64,000 bases of DNA from positions 1 to 64,000 of the forward strand of contig SVGE01000003.1 in NCBI GenBank assembly GCA_015056545.1, given 5' to 3'. This document shows, in pieces, positions 2,930 to 15,025 of the stretch. The notes under the pieces were generated by a model that worked only from the letters and a program-made list of their open reading frames with translations, was not told the DNA's origin and did not search any database. The position numbers and the translations under genes were made by a program. The stretch comes from Clostridiales bacterium (lineage in GTDB: Bacteria > Bacillota > Clostridia > TANB77 > SIG350). How positions within the stretch are numbered: the stretch's first letter is position 1; every line of letters starts with the position of its first letter.

Positions 2930-3509
2930 TTTTACCTCCTTTTTTATTCATTAGTTTTAATCTAATAAATAACTTTAATAAAGTTATTATTCTACAATTA
3001 ATCTTCCCATCAATAATAATATTGTTTTGATTATATACAGGAATTACTTTATATTTAACATTATTAATTTTATTTACTTTAATATTTTTGGCTAAAATTA
3101 TTGATATTAAACTTGATATAATTGTAACAAAATAACAATTTAATATAACATTAGTATTTCCAACATATATATTAATATGTATTTTTTCTTTTAATAAATC
3201 TTTTATTATTGTATTTATAGCTTTTCTGCTATTTCTTACTTGTTTATTTATTTTATTTTTTTTTCTATCTTTTCCTTTTGCTAATATTTCTAAAACATTT
3301 ATATATGTATATTCATTTTTATAATCATAAAACTTTTTATTAAAAATATATATTTTAATTAATAAATTCACTTTATTATATTCAATTATTTCATACTTTA
3401 ATGTAAGATTAACTCTTTTTAAATAGATAAATATATATAAACTTATTAATATACAAATAATTATTCCAAATACATACAATATATTATCACCTAAATTTAT
3501 TTTAAACAA
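2844..3509 (-). CDS. DUF2953 family membrane protein (YtfI-like)
   Basis: A 221-residue protein with one N-terminal membrane helix (residues ~9-28, VFGIIICILISLYIFIYL) and a second hydrophobic stretch at ~128-140. The rest is basic. The position between scpA and gerW/ytfJ is the conserved location of DUF2953 (YtfI) in Clostridia and Bacilli, and length fits the family (~220 aa). It overlaps gerW by 86 nt, so its last ~28 residues are encoded by the start of gerW and look non-conserved (Asn/Lys/Arg/Cys-rich). The family assignment rests on context plus topology; sequence similarity is weak by eye. Confidence 0.65.
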   Translation of the reverse strand: MFKINLGDNILYVFGIIICILISLYIFIYLKRVNLTLKYEIIEYNKVNLLIKIYIFNKKFYDYKNEYTYINVLEILAKGKDRKKNKINKQVRNSRKAINTIIKDLLKEKIHINIYVGNTNVILNCYFVTIISSLISIILAKNIKVNKINNVKYKVIPVYNQNNIIIDGKINCRIITLLKLFIRLKLMNKKGGKNGKSSNRKFNVNCNDKFKTNDRCRYNCR

Positions 3510-3543
3510 AAAAAAAGTTTTTAAACAAAAATTTAAAAACTCT

Positions 3544-4299
3544 TTATTTTACTTTATTTATTTTTTCTATTGTGATATCACCAAATACCTCATCTTGATT
3601 TATTGCTATTCTTTTTATTTTAGCAAGTTCTAATAAACTTAAAAAAGCTGTTACTTTTTCTAACTTTGTTACTTTTCCAATTGCAAATATTTTATTAAAC
3701 ACAAACTTAGGCTTTTTCATTAATTGTTTTAGTATATCTCTTGCTTTTGACCTTACTGTAACTTTTTCATATTCTGCTAATTTATTTACATTTTCATAAT
3801 TTATATTTTTTAGATTTTCATTTCTTTTAACTAAATTATAATATGTATTTGGTATTATTAATTTATCATATTCTTTTTCTATTTTCTTTTTAGGTAATTC
3901 GATTTTATCTGCTTCTTTAAAAAATCTTTTTGAATATATCTCATATCTTTCTTTTAATCCATTAGAAAAATCTTTATACATTTTATATTCTAAAATTCTT
4001 CTAGCTAGCTCTTCCTCTGTTATTTCCTCAACTTCTTCAGGTTCTAATTTTGGAAGTAATCTTTTTGATTTTAAATATATAAGTGTTGAAGCCATAACTA
4101 AAAATTCACTAGCAATATCTAAATTATATTTTTCCATTTGATTTAAATATTCAATATACTGTTCTGTTATTTCATCAAGCTTTATATCAAATATATCCAT
4201 TTTATTTTTATCTATTAAAAAACATAATAAATCTAATGGTCCTTCAAAATTTTCTATTTTAATTAAATACTTTTTTGAGTTATCTATATTTTCTTCCAA
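3544..4299 (-). CDS. scpA: segregation and condensation protein A
   Basis: A 251-residue ScpA kleisin. It bridges the SMC dimer heads and works with ScpB in chromosome condensation. Visible hallmarks are the N-terminal FEGPLDLLCFLIDKNKMDIFDI block (residues ~19-40), the ASEFLVMASTLIYLKSKRLLP helix, an acidic linker (EPEEVEEITEEELARRI) and a C-terminal winged-helix with FLSLLELAKIKRI. Start is TTG, with GGAGGTGA 4-6 nt upstream. The usual downstream partner scpB is absent: DUF2953 follows directly after ~35 bp, and no scpB is found in the window. Confidence 0.95.
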   Translation of the reverse strand: MEENIDNSKKYLIKIENFEGPLDLLCFLIDKNKMDIFDIKLDEITEQYIEYLNQMEKYNLDIASEFLVMASTLIYLKSKRLLPKLEPEEVEEITEEELARRILEYKMYKDFSNGLKERYEIYSKRFFKEADKIELPKKKIEKEYDKLIIPNTYYNLVKRNENLKNINYENVNKLAEYEKVTVRSKARDILKQLMKKPKFVFNKIFAIGKVTKLEKVTAFLSLLELAKIKRIAINQDEVFGDITIEKINKVK

Positions 4300-4381
4300 A
4301 ATTTCACCTCCATTTGCTTAATTATATATTAACTTTTTCTTATTTTCAACTATTAATTTTAAAGAATATATAAGAAATTTA

Positions 4382-4427
4382 TAAAAAGATAAGATAACTA
4401 TTTCTTTAATAATTATCTTATCTTTTA
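4382..4427 (-). terminator. terminator after the P-loop ATPase gene
   Basis: Inverted repeat AAAAGATAAGATAA ... TTATCTTATCTTTT, immediately after the stop at 4430, followed by a T-rich stretch on the minus strand. It closes the 4430-8773 operon. Confidence 0.75.
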
Positions 4428-4429
4428 TT

Positions 4430-5023
4430 TCAAATTATTTTTTTAATTTCTTTTAACACATTTTCATATTTTTCTTCAAATGTTTGATATGCTTTAACTT
4501 CAATAAAATCATGATGTTTTTTCCATATTTCTTTTACCTTTTCATCAAAAACTTTAGCTTGATTAACATTTGATTTACGAGCTTTATTATTTTCATCTGA
4601 AAAGATTTCAGGAAATTGTATTGAAACACTTTCAAGATATATTACTGTATCATAACGCATATATATATTTGTTTCAGAAAAAGCATATTTTTTAGCCATG
4701 TTTCTAAAATCTTCAGCATCCATATATGCTTTTCCATCCATAAGTCCTCTATCTAATAATATAATAACATTGTCCATATTTGCTTCTTCAATTGCTGTTA
4801 TTATATTATTTTCCTTATCTAACTGATACTTAAATATTAATTTTTGATAAATGTTTGTTTCAATAGAATTATCCCACCATTTGAAACCTGCATTTATTAT
4901 TTCAGTTGAAGTTTCAGAAATAATAAACACTTGATATCCTAGCCGCTCAAGATACTCCTTTAATTTCTGAATAATTTTACTTTTTCCTGCTGATGGTCCA
5001 CCTGTAAAAACTATTTTTTTCAT
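4430..5023 (-). CDS. AAA_28-type P-loop ATPase / kinase-like protein
   Basis: A 197-residue P-loop protein. Walker A is GGPSAGKS at residues 8-15; a later VIILLDRGLMDGKAYM segment contains the Walker B-like Asp and the DRG motif seen in nucleoside/nucleotide kinases of the NadR-like AAA_28 group. Its substrate is unknown. I chose the ATG at 5023 (AAAGGAG 8 nt upstream) over an in-frame TTG 18 nt earlier. It follows the CYTH gene by 28 nt in a five-gene operon. P-loop kinase and CYTH domains are fused in the plant TTM1/TTM2 proteins, so the pairing here suggests the two proteins act on one phosphorylated substrate; this is inference. Confidence 0.8.
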   Translation of the reverse strand: MKKIVFTGGPSAGKSKIIQKLKEYLERLGYQVFIISETSTEIINAGFKWWDNSIETNIYQKLIFKYQLDKENNIITAIEEANMDNVIILLDRGLMDGKAYMDAEDFRNMAKKYAFSETNIYMRYDTVIYLESVSIQFPEIFSDENNKARKSNVNQAKVFDEKVKEIWKKHHDFIEVKAYQTFEEKYENVLKEIKKII

Positions 5024-5051
5024 ATTATTAGCTCCTTTCAAAAATAATAAT

Positions 5052-5633
5052 TTATTCTGCTAATCTGTATGCATATCCAGCTGGAAATTTTATATCATTT
5101 TCATTTAAATATATTTGATTATATCTTTTATATTCATCAAATATATCCCAATATGTACCTTCAACAATATCATTATCATCAAGATTCAATTCATCAAGTA
5201 TTTGCCAAATTTCATATTCTGTTCCATGAATTTCTAAAAAACAACCAAAAATTAATTCATCCAAATTAATTTCATTTTTATTATATAACCATTTTAGTCT
5301 ATACTTTTCCATAGTATACATAGGTTTAAGTCCTAACTTTTCTAAAATGCTTTTTATTCCTTTGATATTATCTACTTCAACTTCTATACCATTTCTAGTT
5401 AATATCTTATCTTCTTCTACATCAGCCATTTTTTCTTTTAATGAAATAGTATTTTTAAGTCCGCTTCTTAATCTAATAAATTTACCTTGTTTTTCATAAA
5501 AACCTTGTTCATTATCATATCTGACACTAGTCTCTTTTCCACCTCCAATTAATATAGCTGATTTTTCTCTAAGTTTATTAACTATTTCATCTTTATCTGC
5601 AAGTCTAACTTTTATTTCTTTACTAATATTCAT
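5052..5633 (-). CDS. CYTH domain protein (triphosphate tunnel metalloenzyme), copy 1
   Basis: A 193-residue CYTH-fold protein. The N-terminal KEIKVRL strand, the RYDNEQGFYEKQGKFIRLRSG run, ISLKEK, and the late GCFLEIHGTEYEIW strand supply the alternating acidic/basic side chains that line the tunnel in this family, which acts on triphosphates (class IV adenylate cyclases, thiamine triphosphatase, inorganic triphosphatase). Start is the ATG at 5633, preceded by GGGGGAG at about 6 nt; an upstream in-frame start would lack an RBS. It overlaps the stop of the phosphoribosyltransferase-like gene by 11 nt. Actual substrate unknown. A second CYTH gene lies at 9583-10140. Confidence 0.85.
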   Translation of the reverse strand: MNISKEIKVRLADKDEIVNKLREKSAILIGGGKETSVRYDNEQGFYEKQGKFIRLRSGLKNTISLKEKMADVEEDKILTRNGIEVEVDNIKGIKSILEKLGLKPMYTMEKYRLKWLYNKNEINLDELIFGCFLEIHGTEYEIWQILDELNLDDNDIVEGTYWDIFDEYKRYNQIYLNENDIKFPAGYAYRLAE

Positions 5634-6684
5634 TAGTATCTCCCCCTTTACATATTTCAACATATTTATTTCTGAAAAAATCTTCTTCCTCTATATTAAT
5701 ATCTGAAGTTTTATATATTGTATTTATAATTGAAACATAATCAGCATTTAAAATATTGTTTTTATTTCGTGGGCTAAGTCCAAATAATATTGGCATACCT
5801 CCCATTTCAATAACTTTATTTTTTAAGATTTTCATTGTTTTTCCTGAATACATATTATCTATTATTAATACTTTTTTACCATATATTTCTTTGCTAAATA
5901 GTTTAAATGTACTCTCTTTACTATTTTCTGCATGAATTTCCCAAAACATAACTTTATTTAAATTACTATCATTAATAAATGATGACATATACTTAAAACA
6001 TCCAAATGGAACAAATAACAATATATCTGCTTGAATTTCGTCTAATATCTCTAAATTATTATACTCAAATATTACTTGATTGTATGGTTCCATCTCTTTT
6101 ATTATATTTATATTTTCTTTAACTTCTTTATAAAAATTTTTTTGAACATCTGAAAGCTCTCTAAATTTTCTTATATGTGTTTTTATATTTTTAGTTTTCC
6201 CTAATTCATTTTTCGCATTTTCATAATAAAACTTATATTCTTCTGATTTAATAAAACTTTCTACCATATCCATTTTTAAATTACTTACTCTAGTATCACT
6301 TCCAGATACTCTGACTTCTGTATCCAAAATAGGACCATATGAGATTAAATATTCAAAATCTTTATATAAGAATTTTTTTCTTTCTAATATGCTATTTATA
6401 TATCCTTTTAACATATTATTTTCTATTAAATTTTTTATAAAATCATAATATGCTAAATTAAATACAAGATTTTGGTATTGTAAAACTTTTTTATAATCTG
6501 TTATATCTACAATTGTTTCTTCAGGTGGAATAATTCTAATCCCTTTACAACATTTTGAATATTTCCATCCTTTTTCTTTTAATATTTTTGCTTTTTCTAA
6601 ATCTTCAGTAAAATACACAACACCACTTCTTGCATATTCAACATATGTTATATTATCTTTAAAAATATTTTTGATTTCATTCAT
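5623..6684 (-). CDS. phosphoribosyltransferase-like protein
   Basis: A 353-residue cytoplasmic protein. The C-terminal third carries a type I phosphoribosyltransferase signature: a strand VLIID, then NMYSGKT at residues 277-283, equivalent to the PRPP loop (usually D-D/E-x-x-x-T/S-G-x-T). An upstream ILLFVPFGCFKY strand and a following MGGMPILFGLSP strand fit the Rossmann-like core. The N-terminal ~200 residues, with ARSGVVYFTEDLEKAKILKEKGW, are not recognised. A PRPP-dependent role in nucleotide or base chemistry is plausible from motif and neighbours (Nudix, CYTH, P-loop kinase, radical SAM). The RBS AAAGGAA precedes the ATG; the Nudix gene ends 14 bp upstream. Confidence 0.6.
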   Translation of the reverse strand: MNEIKNIFKDNITYVEYARSGVVYFTEDLEKAKILKEKGWKYSKCCKGIRIIPPEETIVDITDYKKVLQYQNLVFNLAYYDFIKNLIENNMLKGYINSILERKKFLYKDFEYLISYGPILDTEVRVSGSDTRVSNLKMDMVESFIKSEEYKFYYENAKNELGKTKNIKTHIRKFRELSDVQKNFYKEVKENINIIKEMEPYNQVIFEYNNLEILDEIQADILLFVPFGCFKYMSSFINDSNLNKVMFWEIHAENSKESTFKLFSKEIYGKKVLIIDNMYSGKTMKILKNKVIEMGGMPILFGLSPRNKNNILNADYVSIINTIYKTSDINIEEEDFFRNKYVEICKGGDTNEY

Positions 6685-6698
6685 TTTTAGCTTTTCCT

Positions 6699-7517
6699 TT
6701 ACATTAATTTATCTCCTATAACTTTTCTAGCTTTTTCTGATGGCATATCATTTAAATTATTTGAATTTATAACAATTCCGTCTTTTATATATGGTTTGTC
6801 TCCATTTAATAATATGTCTAATGCATATTTATTATTATCTACTGAAATAAATTCATTTAATTCATATTTTTCTACCCATTTTACAATATGCTTTTTTGCT
6901 TCATTTTGAGATATACCAATATTCTTATCTGTTCTTAATCTCCCAAAAACTATATCTAATTTTGCATATCTGTTAACACCTTTATATCCTGCATAAAAAT
7001 GATTTATTAAACTTATTGGACTTTTATATGTTATTTCTAAATCTGTATATCCTGTTTCTTCTTTTACTTCTCTTATTGCTGCTTCTTCTGCTGTTTCTCC
7101 ATTTTCAATTCCACCTAACACAAATGATCTACATGTTCTTCCTTTGCAATCTAGGCATAAATACTTATCTTCTTCACTATGTTTTATTACAGCAATAACA
7201 CTGTGTCTTTTTTGTGTTTCAACATCATCCCTAACACTTTCTTCGCCTTTACCATAAAAATATGGAGCTACAACTTGATTAATTCTTATACCATTTTCAT
7301 TAGCATATTTCCAATCTATTTCATTATGTGCTGGTATAAAAAATCTATTTTCTTGAGATTTAATTATTGGAACATACTTATCTATTACAGGAATATATGC
7401 ATTTGTGCATTCAGAATTCATAAATACACCTTCAATTCCATAAACAAGTTCTACCTTATCAAGTTCCATATTTATATTCTCATTATTATCTAATACTATA
7501 GGAACATACTTTTTCAT
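6699..7517 (-). CDS. Nudix hydrolase with an aminoacyl-tRNA-synthetase-editing-like N-terminus
   Basis: A 272-residue protein. A perfect Nudix box (G-x5-E-x7-REVKEETG-Y) runs from about residue 136 to 157, giving the metal site for hydrolysis of nucleoside-diphosphate-linked substrates. Before it, residues ~62-76 (PAHNEIDWKYANENG) and the KRHSVIAVIKH stretch resemble the CP1 editing domain of leucyl-tRNA synthetase; as I recall, some synthetases carry a Nudix-like insert with similar wording. No synthetase catalytic motifs (HIGH, KMSKS) are present, so this is a free-standing piece. The ATG at 7517 (AGAGGAG upstream) was preferred over an in-frame GTG too close to the RBS. The radical SAM gene ends 5 nt upstream. 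Confidence 0.8.
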   Translation of the reverse strand: MKKYVPIVLDNNENINMELDKVELVYGIEGVFMNSECTNAYIPVIDKYVPIIKSQENRFFIPAHNEIDWKYANENGIRINQVVAPYFYGKGEESVRDDVETQKRHSVIAVIKHSEEDKYLCLDCKGRTCRSFVLGGIENGETAEEAAIREVKEETGYTDLEITYKSPISLINHFYAGYKGVNRYAKLDIVFGRLRTDKNIGISQNEAKKHIVKWVEKYELNEFISVDNNKYALDILLNGDKPYIKDGIVINSNNLNDMPSEKARKVIGDKLM

Positions 7518-7522
7518 ATAAA

Positions 7523-8773
7523 TCACTCCTCTCTATATAATTCATTAACAATACTTGACCTACTACTAAGTGAGCAAAATATTGGTTTTAAACCATACTC
7601 TTTATATATTTTTGAAAGCTCATAAGTAAAAGATATTACATTATCAAAATCTGGAGCCTTTTTATTTTCATATGGTGTACACTTTTTTGGTTGAAATACA
7701 CTATAATCAAATACTATTCCTTTTTGAGATATTTTTTTTGCAAATTCTAATGTTTCATTCATATCATCTAAACCTAAAACAAAATTACTTCTTACATTTC
7801 CTTTGCCCATTATATTTACTGCTTCTTCCATTTTTGATAAAAAGTCATCATATTTCATTTTTCCAGGACAAGTTTCTTCAAAATTTTGTTTGTTTACAAC
7901 TTCTAAGTTATATTGTACTTGATTTATTCCTAAGTGTTTCATTTTAATTACTCTTTCAATTTTGTCATGTGGTGCAATATTAATATAATTATCATGTATG
8001 CTTAAATTAATTGTTTTAGATAAATATTCAATAGTTTCCTCTGCAATAATCCATACATCTGTATTGGTAGGTAAATTTCCTGCCATAAAAAATATATGCA
8101 AATGATCTAATTTACTATTTTCAATTATATATTTTAATGAATATTCTAACCCCTTTAAATATTCTTCTTTTTTATTTTCCCACCATTTATTTACATCAAA
8201 ATCATAATTTTTTAAGCTATTTAAACTAGGTTTAAATACACTATCTTCTTCTTTTGGATGAAGGTCACAAAATTTACATGGCTTACCTGAAAGCCAATTA
8301 TAACATCCTTCAAAAAATAATATAGATATTCTATCAATTCCAACTATATCTATATAATCACCTATTGTTGCATTATTATCAATAATCTCACTAGGTATTT
8401 TTTGTTTTAATATATCTGCTGTTTTTATTAAATTAATATTTAATTTAGCTTTTTCTCCTTCAATTTCTATATTTATTTTTCCATTATCATCTAGTTTTAA
8501 TATAAGTGGTGAATTAACAGAATATCTTAATTTAACAATACTCTTATTTACACCATCATCTAATAATACTTCTGATGGTATAACAGTTTCATCTTTTGAC
8601 ATATCATATACCTGGAAATCTGTAGCTACTGGTTTTACAACTCTTCTTTTAATTTTATAATTATTAATATTTTCATAATTATTAAATAAATTTAAAGGTT
8701 CAAACTTTACTCCATGCTTTAATATGAGTATTTTTAATCTCACTATTTCTGAAAAATTTTCATATTTATTCAT
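7523..8773 (-). CDS. radical SAM protein with atypical CX8CX2C motif
   Basis: A 416-residue protein. Cys157, Cys166 and Cys169 form C-x8-C-x2-C (EGCYNWLSGKPCKFCD), a widened version of the CX3CX2C motif that holds the 4Fe-4S cluster in radical SAM enzymes. Following elements fit the partial TIM barrel: HIFFMAGNLPTN (GGE-like strand position), ISIHDNYINIAP, NQVQYNLEVVNKQNFEETCPGK and RSNFVLGLDD. The N-terminal ~140 residues are a separate beta-rich region of unknown role. It is the first gene of the operon with Nudix, PRTase-like, CYTH and P-loop proteins. The reaction cannot be predicted; the wide cysteine spacing is the notable feature. Confidence 0.75.
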   Translation of the reverse strand: MNKYENFSEIVRLKILILKHGVKFEPLNLFNNYENINNYKIKRRVVKPVATDFQVYDMSKDETVIPSEVLLDDGVNKSIVKLRYSVNSPLILKLDDNGKINIEIEGEKAKLNINLIKTADILKQKIPSEIIDNNATIGDYIDIVGIDRISILFFEGCYNWLSGKPCKFCDLHPKEEDSVFKPSLNSLKNYDFDVNKWWENKKEEYLKGLEYSLKYIIENSKLDHLHIFFMAGNLPTNTDVWIIAEETIEYLSKTINLSIHDNYINIAPHDKIERVIKMKHLGINQVQYNLEVVNKQNFEETCPGKMKYDDFLSKMEEAVNIMGKGNVRSNFVLGLDDMNETLEFAKKISQKGIVFDYSVFQPKKCTPYENKKAPDFDNVISFTYELSKIYKEYGLKPIFCSLSSRSSIVNELYREE

Positions 8774-8831
8774 TTTCTCTCCTCCTTATTATTAATGTAA
8801 AGGGTATGGAAAATATACCATACCCCTTAGA

Positions 8832-9410
8832 TTAGTAATAATTTTTTAAGAAATCCTGATTACTTGAATTTTTCATTTTATTTATTCTTTCAACTTCAAG
8901 AATTTTCTTAACTTGCTTTATTGCTTCTTGCAAATTATCATTTACAACTAAATAATCATATACCTTTTTAGCTACTTCTACTTCTTTTTTAGCAATCTCT
9001 ATTCTTCCTTTCCCTCTGTCACCCATTCTTTTAATTAATTCTTCAATAGTAGGTGGTATTATATATATAAGAATTGCATTAGGAAATGCTTTTTTTATAT
9101 TTATTCCTCCTTCTACATTTACATCAAAGAATATATCATTTGGATAATGTTTATCCAAATCAGGAATCGGTGTTCCATAATAGTTGCTATCATAAAGACT
9201 AGTTTCTAAAAAGAACCCTTTATCTTCTCTTTCCTTAAATTCTTGTTTTGAAATATATTCATAATCAAATCCTTCTACTTCACCTTCTCTGGGGCTCCGA
9301 GTTGTACATGAAACATATCTATATGTGTTTCCTTCTTTTGCAATCTCTTTATAGATAGTTCCTTTTCCAGCTCCACTTGGTCCTGATAATACAACAATAA
9401 TATTATTCAT
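8832..9410 (-). CDS. gmk: guanylate kinase
   Basis: A 192-residue guanylate kinase that phosphorylates GMP (or dGMP) to GDP. The P-loop GPSGAGKGT is at residues 10-18, followed by the GMP-binding TTRSPREGEVEGFDYEYIS segment, DVNVEGG (Walker B region), and IPPTIEELIKRMGDRG of the lid. Length is typical. The ATG at 9410 follows GGAGG by 7 nt; an ATG six bases earlier is too close to that RBS. Housekeeping gene placed between the two CYTH/radical SAM operons. Confidence 0.97.
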   Translation of the reverse strand: MNNIIVVLSGPSGAGKGTIYKEIAKEGNTYRYVSCTTRSPREGEVEGFDYEYISKQEFKEREDKGFFLETSLYDSNYYGTPIPDLDKHYPNDIFFDVNVEGGINIKKAFPNAILIYIIPPTIEELIKRMGDRGKGRIEIAKKEVEVAKKVYDYLVVNDNLQEAIKQVKKILEVERINKMKNSSNQDFLKNYY

Positions 9411-9546
9411 ATACATACCTCCTAAATTATTAGAAAATCTAAATTACCTCTATTTTACAATATAATTTTATTTTGTTTTAGATATAAAATCAAATACTAA
9501 TTATTTATATTGGTCATAAATCTCTTTTATGGGTATAAACACAAAA

Positions 9547-9580
9547 ATAAATAGCACACATTATACTGTATGCTATTTTA
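9547..9580 (-). terminator. terminator after the second CYTH gene
   Basis: AATAGCA and TGCTATT arms around a short AT-rich loop, followed by T-rich sequence on the minus strand, directly downstream of the stop at 9583. Confidence 0.6.
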
Positions 9581-9582
9581 CT

Positions 9583-10140
9583 CTAATTATTTTCTAAAAA
9601 TTTATTTAAATTATTTTCAAACTCAATCTTAAATTCTAAGTCATTCATTTTTTCTTTAAAAATATCTCCATATAATTTATCTGGATAAGTTGTTATCCCA
9701 ACTTGTTTTATATATTCTTGAATATCTTCAAATTGACAGTTTTCTTTTAATTCAAATTCAACATATGTTCCAAGTAAATCAATTTCATCTATACATATTA
9801 TTGCTTTTTCTATTTCTCTTACTTCTCTATTTCTATTTATATATAAATAAGGTTTTAATCCAATGTTACTTAAAAAATCATATCCTTCTTTAATTGTATT
9901 TATATTTATTAATTCTTCATTCCATGTGCTATTCTCTAATCTTTTCTTACTTTCAATAAATACTTTTCCATTTTTTTTTCTGATACGAATAATATATCCT
10001 AATTTATCTAATGAATCAAATCCGTATAATCCCATGCATAAATCAATACATTTTTGATTATCTTCTACTTTTATTGAAGAATTAATTATTTTTGTTTTTA
10101 TATCTTCATCTATTTTATATCTAATTTCTCTTTCTAACAT
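9583..10140 (-). CDS. CYTH domain protein (class IV adenylate cyclase-like), copy 2
   Basis: A 185-residue CYTH protein beginning LEREIRYKID, the family's ExE...K opening. Next come IIRIRKKNGKVFIESKKR (basic tunnel strands), CIDEIDLLGTYVEFEL (the paired acidic strands with the conserved Gly) and YGDIFKEKM near the C-terminus. The family hydrolyses or cyclises triphosphates with divalent metal. Its ATG overlaps the last bases of the LysR-radical SAM gene by 7 nt, so the two are a translationally coupled two-gene unit. A terminator follows. It is clearly distinct from copy 1 at 5052-5633. Confidence 0.85.
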   Translation of the reverse strand: MLEREIRYKIDEDIKTKIINSSIKVEDNQKCIDLCMGLYGFDSLDKLGYIIRIRKKNGKVFIESKKRLENSTWNEELININTIKEGYDFLSNIGLKPYLYINRNREVREIEKAIICIDEIDLLGTYVEFELKENCQFEDIQEYIKQVGITTYPDKLYGDIFKEKMNDLEFKIEFENNLNKFLENN

Positions 10141-11951
10141 TTACAATTTTCCCCCATTTTATAATAAACTTCTTTTATTTTCTTTCCTAATTCTTCATCT
10201 TCTCTATTTTTAATATTATTATATAAATCTATACATTCATCTGTATTTCTGCATAAATTTACTTTACCATCTTGAGAAATAAATATATCATTATTATTTT
10301 TGCAAGAAATATTCTTATCTGTTCCTAATGCAACTTGACTGCAAGTACATCTTTGCAAATGTATATTATGATTCTCTTTTACATATGTATTTTTTCTAAA
10401 ATTACCTTTTTTCTTCTTATATCCCATATGTGTTATTTTAGGTATTATATTATCTATTGAATAATAATTTTCTATAGTATTAGGATATAATTCAATAAAT
10501 TTTAAATCTGATTTTATAGAAATAGCAAATTTTACAAGTTCACTAATATCTTCTAATTTGTCATTTACACCTTTAATTAATACAGTATTAATTAAAATTT
10601 TTAATGTAGGATATTTATATCTTAATTCTCTAATTGCCTCTAAAACTTTTTCATATGCGCCTTTAACTCCACTTATTTTTTCATACTCTTTTTTATCAAT
10701 ACTATGAATAGATAATATTAATTCATCAACATATTCACCTATCCACATATTATCTTTTAACAAATATCCATTAGTAGTTATTTTTACTTTTGCTCCTTCA
10801 TTTTTTAAAGAAGTAATTATCTCTTTTAAATCTTTTCTAAGTAGAGGTTCTCCACCAGTTAAATGAACTTCTTTTAATTCATATTTTTTATTAAATATTT
10901 TAAACATATATTTTATATCTTCATAATTAAGTAACTCTTCCCTATTATCCTTTATTCCCTCTTTATGGCAAAACTTACAATTATATGTACATTCTTGATT
11001 TAGAATTAATCTAATTGTTTTTTGTTTTAGATAACTTAACATATCTGTTTTTTCTTTTAATACCTCTATAAATTTTTTAGGTGCACTTGTTAAAAATTCA
11101 GAAATATATGCTACACATATTTTTGTTTTAGGAAATTCTCCTTCTATTGGTATTTCTATAAGCTCACCTGACTGTATCTTATCTATAACTGACATTCTTG
11201 AAAAATACCCTATTCCTATCCCCTTTTTAACTAAATCAAGCATTACTTCTGTAGTTGCAACTTCTATATTAGGTTCAAATTTATTTATGTTTTCACCCAT
11301 AACTTTTAATAATTCTTTTCTTGTACTTGTTGTTTTTGGTTGAAGTATTAATGGATAGCTAGATAGTTCATTTATACTTATTTTTTTATTATTTTTTAAT
11401 AAATTTGAATATTTATTACTTCCTACAAAACAATTATCTACTTCTAATAAATCAGTTATAGTTACATCTTCTCTTGAACTTTCTACTGGATAACTATCTA
11501 TTATTATATCTAATTCTCTTTTTTCAAGTAATTCAACCATATCTGCAGTTGATTTGTTTACTATTGAAAATCTTATTCCAGGATATTTTTTTCTAAATGT
11601 TTCTATTATATCTGATACAAGATATATACAAATATGTGTTGGTACACCTATTTTTACCTCTCCTGTTAGTAAATCATTTGAATCATTTAAAATTTTAAAT
11701 CCTGTTCTTAATGTATTATATGCACTTTCAATATAGTATAAAAGTTTTACTGCATCAGCTGTTAATTCAACTCCTTTTGAAGTACGATTAAATAATTTAC
11801 AATTTAATTTATTTTCTAGTTCTTTTATATTATAGCTTACCGCTGGTTGTGATACATAAAGTGCATTTGCTGCTTTTGTTATACTTCCTAATTTAGCTAC
11901 TGCTAAAAAGGTTGTACATAAATTTAAATCTAAGTTATTTATTTCATCCAT
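10134..11951 (-). CDS. LysR-type regulator fused to a MoaA-like radical SAM enzyme
   Basis: A 605-residue two-part protein. Residues 1-65 are a LysR winged HTH (LGSITKAANALYVSQPAVSYNI, then LFNRTSKGVELT). Residues ~95-300 are a complete LysR effector-binding domain (GEVKIGVPTHI, IIIDSYPVE, MLDLVKKGIGIGYFSR). Residues ~305-605 are a radical SAM enzyme: Cys321-x3-Cys325-x2-Cys328 for the 4Fe-4S cluster, GGEP at 366-369, ITTNGYLL, and a Cys-rich C-terminus (CTC, C, C, CKC) suggesting an auxiliary SPASM-like cluster. The junction is in frame with no internal stop and no RBS needed. Overlaps the CYTH gene. A sensor-regulator joined to a catalytic redox enzyme is unusual; the substrate may be the effector, but this is inference. 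Confidence 0.85.
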   Translation of the reverse strand: MDEINNLDLNLCTTFLAVAKLGSITKAANALYVSQPAVSYNIKELENKLNCKLFNRTSKGVELTADAVKLLYYIESAYNTLRTGFKILNDSNDLLTGEVKIGVPTHICIYLVSDIIETFRKKYPGIRFSIVNKSTADMVELLEKRELDIIIDSYPVESSREDVTITDLLEVDNCFVGSNKYSNLLKNNKKISINELSSYPLILQPKTTSTRKELLKVMGENINKFEPNIEVATTEVMLDLVKKGIGIGYFSRMSVIDKIQSGELIEIPIEGEFPKTKICVAYISEFLTSAPKKFIEVLKEKTDMLSYLKQKTIRLILNQECTYNCKFCHKEGIKDNREELLNYEDIKYMFKIFNKKYELKEVHLTGGEPLLRKDLKEIITSLKNEGAKVKITTNGYLLKDNMWIGEYVDELILSIHSIDKKEYEKISGVKGAYEKVLEAIRELRYKYPTLKILINTVLIKGVNDKLEDISELVKFAISIKSDLKFIELYPNTIENYYSIDNIIPKITHMGYKKKKGNFRKNTYVKENHNIHLQRCTCSQVALGTDKNISCKNNNDIFISQDGKVNLCRNTDECIDLYNNIKNREDEELGKKIKEVYYKMGENCKC

Positions 11952-11990
11952 AAATACTTAACTCCCTTCTATACAATATTATTTATATCA

Positions 11991-12028
11991 CCATAATACA
12001 TTATAACCTATTTTTATGGCTTTTTCAA
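11991..12028 (-). promoter_or_regulatory. sigma-A promoter with dyad operator for the LysR-radical SAM gene
   Basis: On the minus strand, TTGAAA (12023-12028), a 17-bp spacer and TATAAT (12000-12005) form a near-consensus promoter ~50 bp before the ATG. CCATAA (11991-11996) and TTATGG (12014-12019) are an inverted repeat straddling the -10 box, a likely site for autoregulation by the LysR domain. Confidence 0.65.
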
Positions 12029-12037
12029 TATATATAT

Positions 12038-12078
12038 GTAAAAAACACAATCACCCATATCTATTGGGTGATTGTGTT
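12038..12078 (-). terminator. terminator of the 12079-12942 gene
   Basis: Perfect stem AAACACAATCACCCA / TGGGTGATTGTGTTT with a short loop, directly after the stop codon at 12079. Confidence 0.85.
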
Positions 12079-12942
12079 TTAATAATTCACTTCTCTCATA
12101 CCTTCAAATTTATTACTATTTATCCATTTATTCATTAATTGAATTCCTTTTTCATCTGTCCCATATTTTTTTTGCATAACTAAAGCTGAATAATTAAAAC
12201 TCATATCTTTAGTGACTTTATCAGGTATCTTTAAACTCCAGTTCTCTTTTAATACTTCTAAAATTTTCTTTAAACACAAAATAAATTCTTCTTTTCCCTC
12301 ACTCGTATGTTTCCAACACACAAATGGATCTTCTGGACTTTTGGGCTTTTCTAATTTTAAATGTGCTTTAGATAATATCTTGGTATAATAATCCCAATTA
12401 TTCTTATTTAAAAAACTATTAAATGATATTGAATATGTATTTTTATTTTTTATAATAAAAATACTAATACCTGCAAGTTTATCTTTAAAAAAATCATATA
12501 AACTTAATAATAGTTCTACATATTCGTTAATATCATTTTCTTTTTTCTGTAACACACAATTAATTTTACTAAAAAAAACATTTGCATCTTCTTTTCTAAT
12601 AGGTTTAACTGATATTGAACTTTTATACCAGTCTGGTCCACTATGAGGATTACCTCCAAACTTAATCAATATTTCACTTTGTGCAAAATTATCTGTCGCT
12701 AAAAGAATTTTTTTTACATTTTCCTGTGCTGATTCATCAATAAGAAACCTTAAATAAGGAAAATGATTATGATTACCAGAATCACATCCTGTCGTTATAA
12801 CCTTGTTTTTATAGCAATTCCAAAGTAATTTCTCTAGGGCTTCACTTCCTTCTGACCATTCTTTTATAGCTTGTTTAACTTGTTCTTCTTTCAACTCTGA
12901 AATTCTTATAGAACTCCCATCATTCCAAGAAACCTTTTTCAT
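12079..12942 (-). CDS. conserved hypothetical protein, 287 aa
   Basis: The function of this protein is unknown. It starts MKKVSWNDGSSIRISELKEEQVKQAIKEW-like, then has a small Cys/His motif (TTGCDSGNHNHFPY, residues ~51-64) and a GGNPHSGPDWYK segment (~98-109) that I associate with a family of uncharacterised proteins in gut Firmicutes. No signal peptide or membrane helix is visible, and the protein seems all cytoplasmic. Monocistronic, with its own strong terminator and ~125 bp from uvrB upstream. The Cys and His residues could bind metal, but nothing else supports an enzymatic role. Confidence 0.7.
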   Translation of the reverse strand: MKKVSWNDGSSIRISELKEEQVKQAIKEWSEGSEALEKLLWNCYKNKVITTGCDSGNHNHFPYLRFLIDESAQENVKKILLATDNFAQSEILIKFGGNPHSGPDWYKSSISVKPIRKEDANVFFSKINCVLQKKENDINEYVELLLSLYDFFKDKLAGISIFIIKNKNTYSISFNSFLNKNNWDYYTKILSKAHLKLEKPKSPEDPFVCWKHTSEGKEEFILCLKKILEVLKENWSLKIPDKVTKDMSFNYSALVMQKKYGTDEKGIQLMNKWINSNKFEGMREVNY

Positions 12943-13033
12943 TCAAAACACTCCCTTAAAAATTAAGTAGAATAATACTAAAAAAAATTATATTAATATT
13001 ATATCATCTAAAAAGTATTTAAACAAGATGTAC

Positions 13034-13072
13034 AGTTAACATAAAATGATTAGTGTTAATAAAACACTAATC
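13034..13072 (-). terminator. terminator overlapping the uvrB stop codon
   Basis: Inverted repeat ATGATTAGTGTT ... AACACTAATCAT; the 5' arm contains the TAG stop of uvrB, and T-rich sequence follows on the minus strand. Confidence 0.7.
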
Positions 13073-15025
13073 ATTCAAAACATTCTCTAATTCTTTTATT
13101 TTATCTCTTATTTTAGCCGCTTCTTCAAATTCCATATTTTTAGCATGATTTATCATTTGTTTTGTTAAATCATCAATTATTTCTTCAATAGATTTATCTT
13201 TATCTGCTGAATATTTACCTTTTTCCTCTTCTACAACAATAGCTTTAATTGTATCTCTTACAGCTTTTTTAATCGTTTGAGGTACAATACCATTTTTCTC
13301 ATTATATTCTTTTTGAATTTTTCTTCTTCTATTAGTTTCACTTATTGCTTTTTCCATAGAATCTGTTAATTCATCAGCATACATAATAACTTTTCCTTCT
13401 GAATTTCTTGCTGCCCTACCTATTGTTTGTATTAAAGACCTTTCACTACGCAAGAAACCTTCTTTATCTGCATCTAATATTGTAACTAGTGAAACTTCTG
13501 GAATATCTAATCCTTCTCTTAAAAGATTTATTCCAACTAAAACATCTATTTTACCTATTCTTAATTCTTTTATTATTTCTAATCTTTCTAATGTATCAAT
13601 ATCTGAATGCATATATCTAACTTTAATATCTATATTTTTTAAATACTGAGTTAAATCTTCTGCCATCTTTTTAGTTAGTGTTGTAACTAAGACTCTTTCT
13701 TTTTTATCTACAACTTCTCTTATTTGAGTTATTAAATCATCTATTTGATTTTCAGCTGGTTTAACAATTATTTCTGGATCAAGTAATCCTGTTGGTCTAA
13801 TAATTTGTTCAACTGTTCCCTCTGACATATCTTTTTCATAATCAGCTGGTGTAGCACTAACAAATATTGCTTGATTTATCTTATCTTCCCATTCATTAAA
13901 TGTTAATGGTCTATTATCATAAGCTGATGGAAGTCTAAATCCATAATCTACTAATGATGTTTTTCTTGCTCTATCACCATTATACATTGCTCTAACTTGT
14001 GGAATCGTTACATGCGATTCATCAATTATTAGTAAAAAATCATCTGGAAAATAGTCCATAAGTGTATAAGGTGCTGAACCAGGTTTTCTTCCACTTATTA
14101 TTCTAGAATAGTTTTCTATACCTTGGCAAAAGCCTGTTTCTTTTAACATTTCTATATCAAAATTAGTTCTTTCTTCTATTCTTTGAGCTTCTATTAATTT
14201 ATTTTTATCTTTAAAATATTTTATTCTTTCTTCTAACTCTTTTTCTATTTCAACTATTGCATTTTCCATTTTATCTTTTGTTGTAACATAGTGTGATTTT
14301 GGAAAAATAATAACATATTCTCTTGTCCCAATAACTTTACCTGTTAATGGATGAATTTCAGATATTCTTTCAATCTCATCACCCCAAAATTCAATTCTTA
14401 TTGCATGATTAGTTGTTTCTGCAGTATATACCTCAACTACATCCCCTTTAACTCTAAAAGTTCCTCTTTTAAAATCTATTTCATTTCTAACATATTGCAT
14501 GTCCACTAATTTTTTTAAGATTTCATCTCTTGGCTTTATCATACCTGGACGTATAGAGATAACCATATTTTCATAATCTATTGGGTCGCCTAAACCATAA
14601 ATACATGACACACTTGCTACAATTATTACATCTTTTCTTTCATATAAAGATGCTGTTGCTGAATGGCGTAATTGGTCTATTTCATCATTAATTGATGCAT
14701 CTTTTTCAATATATGTATCACTAGATGGAACATATGCTTCTGGTTGATAATAATCATAATATGATACAAAATATTCAACTGCATTTTCAGGAAAGAATTC
14801 TTTAAATTCACTATATAACTGTCCTGCAAGTGTTTTATTATGTGCTAAAACTAATGTTGGTTTATTTACCTCCTTAATTACATTAGCCATAGTAAATGTT
14901 TTACCAGAACCTGTAACACCTAATAATGTTTGAAATTTCTTACCTTCTTTTATTCCATTAGTTAAGTATTCAATTGCCACAGGTTGGTCACCTGTTGGTT
15001 TAAAATCTGAATGTAATTTAAACAT
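13067..15025 (-). CDS. uvrB: UvrABC system protein B
   Basis: A 652-residue UvrB, the damage-verifying helicase of nucleotide excision repair. Walker A GVTGSGKT is at residues 36-43; the beta-hairpin [22 protein letters not shown] region, the DEAD-like [14 protein letters not shown] and the helicase motif [14 protein letters not shown] are all present. The C-terminal UVR motif ([20 protein letters not shown]) that contacts UvrC is intact. It is 19 bp downstream of deoC, in an unusual deoC-uvrB pair. uvrA and uvrC are not in the window. Confidence 0.98.

Follow-up and report, generated by a model that had tools for sequence, protein, structure and literature searches.

The tub cluster of Streptomyces combines a radical S-adenosylmethionine (SAM) enzyme, a phosphoribosyl pyrophosphate (PRPP) transferase, a Nudix hydrolase and a kinase; TubE couples 7-carboxy-7-deazaguanine with PRPP, and TubG, the Nudix enzyme, removes a phosphate (PMC6112128). 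Here we describe a locus that shares the small-cluster logic of tubercidin (and toyocamycin/sangivamycin) biosynthesis, with its purine-type phosphoribosyltransferase (PRTase) and phosphate-trimming Nudix enzyme. The locus lies on the minus strand of a 64,000-nucleotide (nt) stretch of DNA (the window), part of the 1.45-Mb genome of a Clostridiales bacterium, and its core encodes a variant radical SAM (rSAM) protein, a Nudix protein, a PRTase-like protein and a CYTH protein. The initial annotation, which grouped five genes, knew of no named pathway with this set. That statement overlooks the similar combination of enzyme types in tubercidin biosynthesis (PMC6112128), although it stands insofar as the tub families differ from those of the cassette and include no CYTH protein. 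We found no account of a CYTH, PRTase, rSAM and Nudix combination in the open-access papers searched. With somewhat less than even confidence, we read the core as a horizontally moving four-gene cassette for making or remodeling a modified nucleotide.

Four genes make up the conserved unit

The PRTase-like protein was searched for in 388 genomes of the order, and a draw of 212 of its genomes was used for counts of the rSAM protein, the Nudix protein and leucyl-tRNA synthetase (LeuRS). Clear PRTase-like homologues were present in five genomes beyond the window's own (the G211 contig matches L002), and class- and phylum-wide genome draws gave only weak partial matches outside the order. In all six loci (the window, L002, L053, L054, L055 and L056), which come from one taxonomic order and mostly from draft genomes, we found genes for the rSAM protein, the PRTase-like protein, the CYTH protein and a Nudix domain set within a piece of the LeuRS CP1 domain (CP1-Nudix). 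Their order is rSAM-Nudix-PRTase-CYTH in the window and L053, rSAM-PRTase-CYTH-Nudix in L054, L055 and L056, and Nudix-PRTase-CYTH-deoxyribosyltransferase-like-kinase-rSAM in L002. Because the same four genes cluster in five loci besides the window, the grouping goes beyond chance. Full-strength matches to the cassette rSAM occur in 4 of the 212 genomes, exactly the four that are PRTase-positive, a coincidence with p ~1e-8 under independence if the relatedness of the genomes is ignored.

The fifth gene of the window (4430..5023) encodes a P-loop kinase-like protein (AAA_28 match, 76 bits) that is a member of the operon here and lies outside the conserved cassette. No such gene stands beside the core in L053, L054, L055 or L056, and the P-loop kinase of L002 has no meaningful similarity to the window protein. 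Kinase genes of differing types are found near the cassette in four of six loci; in L055 a CMP kinase gene overlaps the cassette Nudix gene, and in L053 a guanylate-kinase-like (Gmk-like) gene lies further upstream. The conserved unit is therefore four genes and not the five originally proposed. Scattered, independently distributed genes, which the initial annotation had named as the observation that would speak against it, are what we see for the P-loop kinase and not for the other four. A chance grouping of unrelated small nucleotide enzymes in an ordinary operon would fit the abundance of Nudix, CYTH and P-loop kinase genes in these genomes and the lack of conservation of the fifth gene. 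We find this barely credible, and for the core four it is refuted by their joint presence in six loci despite changes of order and by their matched divergence.

The cassette moves as a unit

The four genes are inherited and transferred horizontally as one unit. When the six loci are compared two by two, sequence identity in each of the four proteins tracks that in the others (r of 0.96-0.99). Two genomes of one genus, G345 and G146, have UvrB proteins that are 95% identical (over the part compared) and cassette proteins that are 30-50% identical, and bear two different cassette lineages. In the window some 8.8 kb lie between uvrB and scpA; in G002, from the same family, this distance is 1.7 kb and the cassette is absent, so that this interval is an empty site. 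In L055 a recombinase-like gene, assigned by reading of the sequence, is located near the cassette.

A phage or plasmid origin was considered and rejected, as the rSAM, PRTase-like and CP1-Nudix proteins were unmatched in viral-contig scans and plasmid searches. The sole phage match was to the rSAM protein, at 26% identity over half its length, in record MT835476, where the neighboring genes look bacterial. A viral fold search with the PRTase-like model returned only generic PRTase and PRPP synthetase matches.

A Nudix protein apparently excised from LeuRS

The second gene of the core (6699..7517, minus strand) encodes a complete Nudix hydrolase embedded within a shortened CP1 (editing) domain of LeuRS, as judged from Pfam, alignments and a fold model; the initial annotation made no mention of the CP1 domain. 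The Pfam NUDIX match scores 42.4 bits (cut-off 21.1), the Nudix box GGIExxETxEEAAxREVxEETGY is intact, and GX5EX7REUXEEXGU is present in aligned relatives too. Pfam matches part of the LeuRS editing domain ahead of the Nudix domain, and alignment to LeuRS resumes behind it. The same Nudix domain was first seen inside a LeuRS of ~950 amino acids (aa) in two genomes of the same order. Among the 212 genomes, eight carry a Nudix-bearing LeuRS, which in each case is the only LeuRS found, and eight carry an excised CP1-Nudix. The full LeuRS open reading frames (ORFs) with Nudix inserted in CP1 (L019, L020 and L076-L083) have intact editing residues, with TTR(P/A)DT and the PAHD aspartate retained in eight of eight LeuRS-Nudix proteins. 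None of the ten excised proteins retains TTRPDT, and PAHD is replaced by PAHN or PAHI, so that both the threonine-rich peptide and the catalytic aspartate that mark a LeuRS CP1 editing domain are lost. In a maximum-likelihood tree the excised and LeuRS-borne forms are separated with full support, and standalone copies join cassette lineage II.

Judging from these comparisons, the cassette protein is a truncated CP1 fragment with a Nudix domain inside and its editing residues lost, and a LeuRS with Nudix insert of the same order is evidently its source. CP1 is native to LeuRS, from which we infer a direction from LeuRS to cassette. The two forms share the insertion point, the Nudix subfamily and alignable CP1 sequence on both flanks, and most have a conserved K-x-V-N-R region; they differ in that LeuRS-Nudix is a full synthetase keeping TTRPDT and PAHD, whereas the cassette protein is an excised fragment, shortened and without editing function. 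We found no account of a LeuRS with a Nudix insert in the open-access papers searched. A scan of genome contigs for CP1-Nudix turned up a single true relative, in L002. The other matches, where checked, were ordinary Nudix proteins with little in common past the Nudix box.

The structure models were built from six or seven sequences, and that of the Nudix fold resembles Ap4A (diadenosine tetraphosphate), nucleoside triphosphate (NTP) and RNA-cap Nudix enzymes, including the RNA pyrophosphohydrolase RppH. The usual ligand of CP1 is the acceptor end of tRNA. Together, the RppH match and this property of CP1 would suit a role in tRNA or RNA-end processing, in which the CP1-derived protein would bind tRNA or RNA 3' or 5' ends and the cassette would modify or repair RNA nucleotides. 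We consider this very improbable, since CP1 is truncated, Ap4A/NTP Nudix enzymes score as well as RppH, and the other three proteins belong to no recognized RNA-binding or RNA-modifying family.

Standalone CP1-Nudix genes were found in three genomes (L091, L092 and L095), in arrays that also encode an APH-type kinase, GNAT-like, Ham1-like, L,D-transpeptidase-like and CYTH-like proteins, a methyltransferase and another Nudix protein; these look like resistance or detoxification arrays. Detoxification or immunity is the main rival to a nucleotide-making cassette. Here the locus would destroy or repair a nucleotide or aminoacyl-nucleotide that is toxic or damaged, such as a compound directed against LeuRS; the CP1 shell would capture the compound, Nudix would cleave it, and the rSAM, PRTase-like and CYTH proteins would process the fragments. 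The standalone genes in resistance-like arrays, the patchy horizontal spread, and the same Nudix domain in the sole LeuRS of eight genomes, which is consistent with LeuRS-linked house-cleaning, all argue for it. However, CP1-Nudix occurs without the other three genes, and a role for CP1-Nudix only leaves the obligate four-gene set unexplained. The CP1 editing residues are also lost, and detoxification seldom involves radical SAM enzymes. Overall we regard this explanation as unlikely.

The rSAM, PRTase-like and CYTH proteins

The rSAM protein (7523..8773, minus strand; 416 aa) is assigned to NCBIfam NF045502 ('variant_rSAM') at 146 bits against a cut-off of 125, and cassette rSAMs score above that cut-off at 146 and 173 bits. 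It falls far below the MSMEG_0568 equivalog (44 versus 304). A nitrilase cluster is the known neighborhood of the MSMEG_0568-type family, and the neighbors of the cassette rSAM differ. The cluster motif C-x8-C-x2-C (C157, C166 and C169) has unusual spacing and is invariant in six orthologues. Profile matches to metallo-beta-lactamases in the PDB were judged to be chance. Among distant relatives, one variant radical SAM gene lies with genes for a dNK/TMPK-like kinase, a CYTH protein, a GT2 glycosyltransferase and a cytidine deaminase (L096:1880-6111), in what resembles a nucleoside-type biosynthetic cluster. Another lies in a nonribosomal peptide synthetase cluster with a lysine-aminomutase-like radical SAM enzyme, an ATP-grasp protein and a methyltransferase (L097:264-6551). 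Both contexts suggest small-molecule roles.

The PRTase-like protein (5623..6684, minus strand; 353 aa) was assigned by profile and fold model and consists of a unique N-terminal region of ~200 residues followed by an HGPRT-like C-terminal domain. At the sequence level the window protein has no family match, the best of six orthologues reaches Pribosyltran at E 0.004, and a six-sequence profile reaches HGPRT weakly, at E 0.03. The AlphaFold model (pLDDT 77) has HGXPRT/HPRT as its top PDB matches (E ~1e-3, probability 1.0), so that the predicted fold is that of a PRTase and 'PRTase-like' seems a fair label. The PRPP loop VLIIDNMYSGKT is deviant, with the SGKT phosphate loop kept, one residue too few, and Asn or Ser in place of the second acid. 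Because of these two changes, the protein may not be a standard transferase.

The CYTH protein (5052..5633, minus strand) is CyaB-like. It matches Pfam CYTH at 33.8 bits (cut-off 23.2) and TIGR00318 (CyaB) at 52.1, short of the cut-off of 57.95. By inspection, the cassette CYTH proteins keep most of their tunnel residues.

Operon layout and upstream genes

Five minus-strand ORFs running from 8773 to 4430 were confirmed, and the initial description of tightly spaced genes (-11 to +28 nt) closed by a terminator holds in full. Probable starts are at 8773 for the rSAM gene and 6684 for the PRTase-like gene. The Nudix gene probably starts at ATG 7517, 5 nt past the rSAM stop; the listed GTG at 7526 would overlap the rSAM gene by 4 nt. 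The CYTH gene probably starts at ATG 5633, overlapping the PRTase-like gene by 11 nt, and the P-loop gene at ATG 5023, after a gap of 28 nt. The terminator hairpin (4383..4425, minus strand; -19.9 kcal/mol, z -6.8) lies right past the last stop and is followed by a T run.

Upstream of the core the initial annotation left out three minus-strand genes between 8832 and 11951. The first (8832..9416) encodes a divergent Gmk-like protein with an orthologue beside the L053 cassette; as the only Guanylate_kin match in the window's genome, it may have taken the place of an ordinary gmk. The second (9583..10140) encodes an accessory CYTH protein (ExExR), also with an orthologue beside the L053 cassette. 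The third (10134..11951) is a single ORF, likewise accessory, that joins a LysR regulator with a MoaA-like radical SAM domain. L053 has the same upstream set, with LysR and rSAM as two overlapping separate genes. Between the Gmk-like and rSAM genes lies a GGGTATGG/CCATACCC hairpin (8799..8828, minus strand; z -3.5), which may act as a terminator or attenuator for the core operon at its head, and the second CYTH gene is followed by a hairpin resembling a terminator (9549..9578, minus strand). Since hairpins stand between them and the core, the upstream genes may be separate transcription units. An Rfam scan of 3000-14000 found no known RNA. Between the LysR-rSAM gene and uvrB, a 287-aa ORF (12079-12942) is without any Pfam match.

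The upstream region bears on the second rival, antiviral nucleotide production, in which the locus together with the upstream LysR, MoaA/viperin-like rSAM and kinases would produce analogues of nucleotides to impede phage polymerases, following a viperin-like logic. In L054 the cassette is adjoined upstream by LysR, a viperin-like rSAM (L054:11534-12340) and a different CYTH protein, and this rSAM matches the PADLOC pVip model at E 3e-43; the LysR-rSAM of the window does so at E 3e-22. The CMP kinase gene overlapping the L055 cassette and the patchy transfer as a unit also fit. However, the two proteins score 144 and 76 bits, respectively, against an NCBIfam viperin cut-off of 180, and PADLOC models give the core no convincing match. 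Among the four loci whose upstream sequence is long enough, three have LysR and rSAM genes, yet in the window hairpins part them from the core, and no defense genes were recognized in the cassette loci. We therefore consider antiviral production quite improbable.

A candidate pathway for a modified nucleotide

The initial annotation proposed a short pathway for a modified or damaged nucleotide or a cofactor. Not all five of its genes belong, but a nucleotide pathway is still the most plausible reading of the four that do. In such a pathway the rSAM enzyme would alter a base or nucleoside(-phosphate) by a radical mechanism, and the PRTase-fold protein would join, exchange or bind the base with a 5-phosphoribosyl group. 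A nucleotide kinase, either the neighboring one of P-loop, Gmk or Cmk type or the host's own, would raise the phosphorylation state, and the CYTH protein and Nudix domain would cleave triphosphate or nucleoside-diphosphate linkages. The degenerate CP1 shell would probably offer a surface that binds or positions the nucleotide. As product we would expect a small metabolite derived from a nucleotide and made by few strains, rather than a housekeeping cofactor.

Several observations weigh against this pathway. The six loci share neither a transporter nor a regulator, and they are few and confined to one order. The acidic pair of the PRPP loop is D-N or D-S in place of the full-length paired-acid form, which makes PRPP-dependent catalysis uncertain. 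In six of six CYTH proteins the first Glu of ExExK is missing, with the second being Glu or Gln and the Lys kept. Given the deviant PRPP loop, the lost ExExK Glu and the unusual Cx8Cx2C spacing, each cassette enzyme seems adapted rather than generic.

It is somewhat unlikely that the locus is a new mobile biosynthetic or immune module for a modified nucleotide with one enzyme excised, Nudix included, from the LeuRS editing domain; if so, the Nudix domain within the sole LeuRS of related species would tie nucleotide hydrolysis to aminoacylation. The nested-domain history, with a Nudix hydrolase evidently taken up into the CP1 domain of LeuRS, an essential synthetase, and then excised, stripped of editing residues and recruited to a mobile cassette, is absent from the literature we searched. 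The LeuRS form also raises the question why a synthetase needs a Nudix hydrolase, be it for Ap4A, wrong adenylates or RNA ends; clean-up of Ap4A or wrong adenylates is our guess. The four genes offer a compact unit, open to direct testing, for a putative nucleotide metabolite of gut-type Clostridia.

Comparison with known systems

The adjacent P-loop and CYTH genes of the window had been likened to plant TTM1/TTM2, in which a P-loop kinase is fused to CYTH. In the window the two are adjacent but separate genes. We rejected P-loop/CYTH as a conserved pair, and the comparison fails because the adjacency is not conserved in homologous loci, where the P-loop gene is absent or unrelated.

The likeness to the tub pathway is one of logic. 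That pathway makes 7-carboxy-7-deazaguanine via GTP cyclohydrolase I and CPH4 synthase, and we found neither of these, nor a QueE-type rSAM, among the cassette or neighboring window genes scanned. TubE is 194 aa long, compared with 309-353 aa for the cassette PRTase-like proteins, and TubG, at 168 aa, is too short for a CP1 shell. The prokaryotic viperins differ in that the cassette rSAM is not a viperin, and neither the MoaA-like domain of the window nor the L054 protein reaches the NCBIfam viperin cut-off. What those viperins that occur with nucleotide kinases share with the cassette is the logic of a radical SAM enzyme and a kinase, and in L054 a viperin-like gene adjoins the cassette itself.

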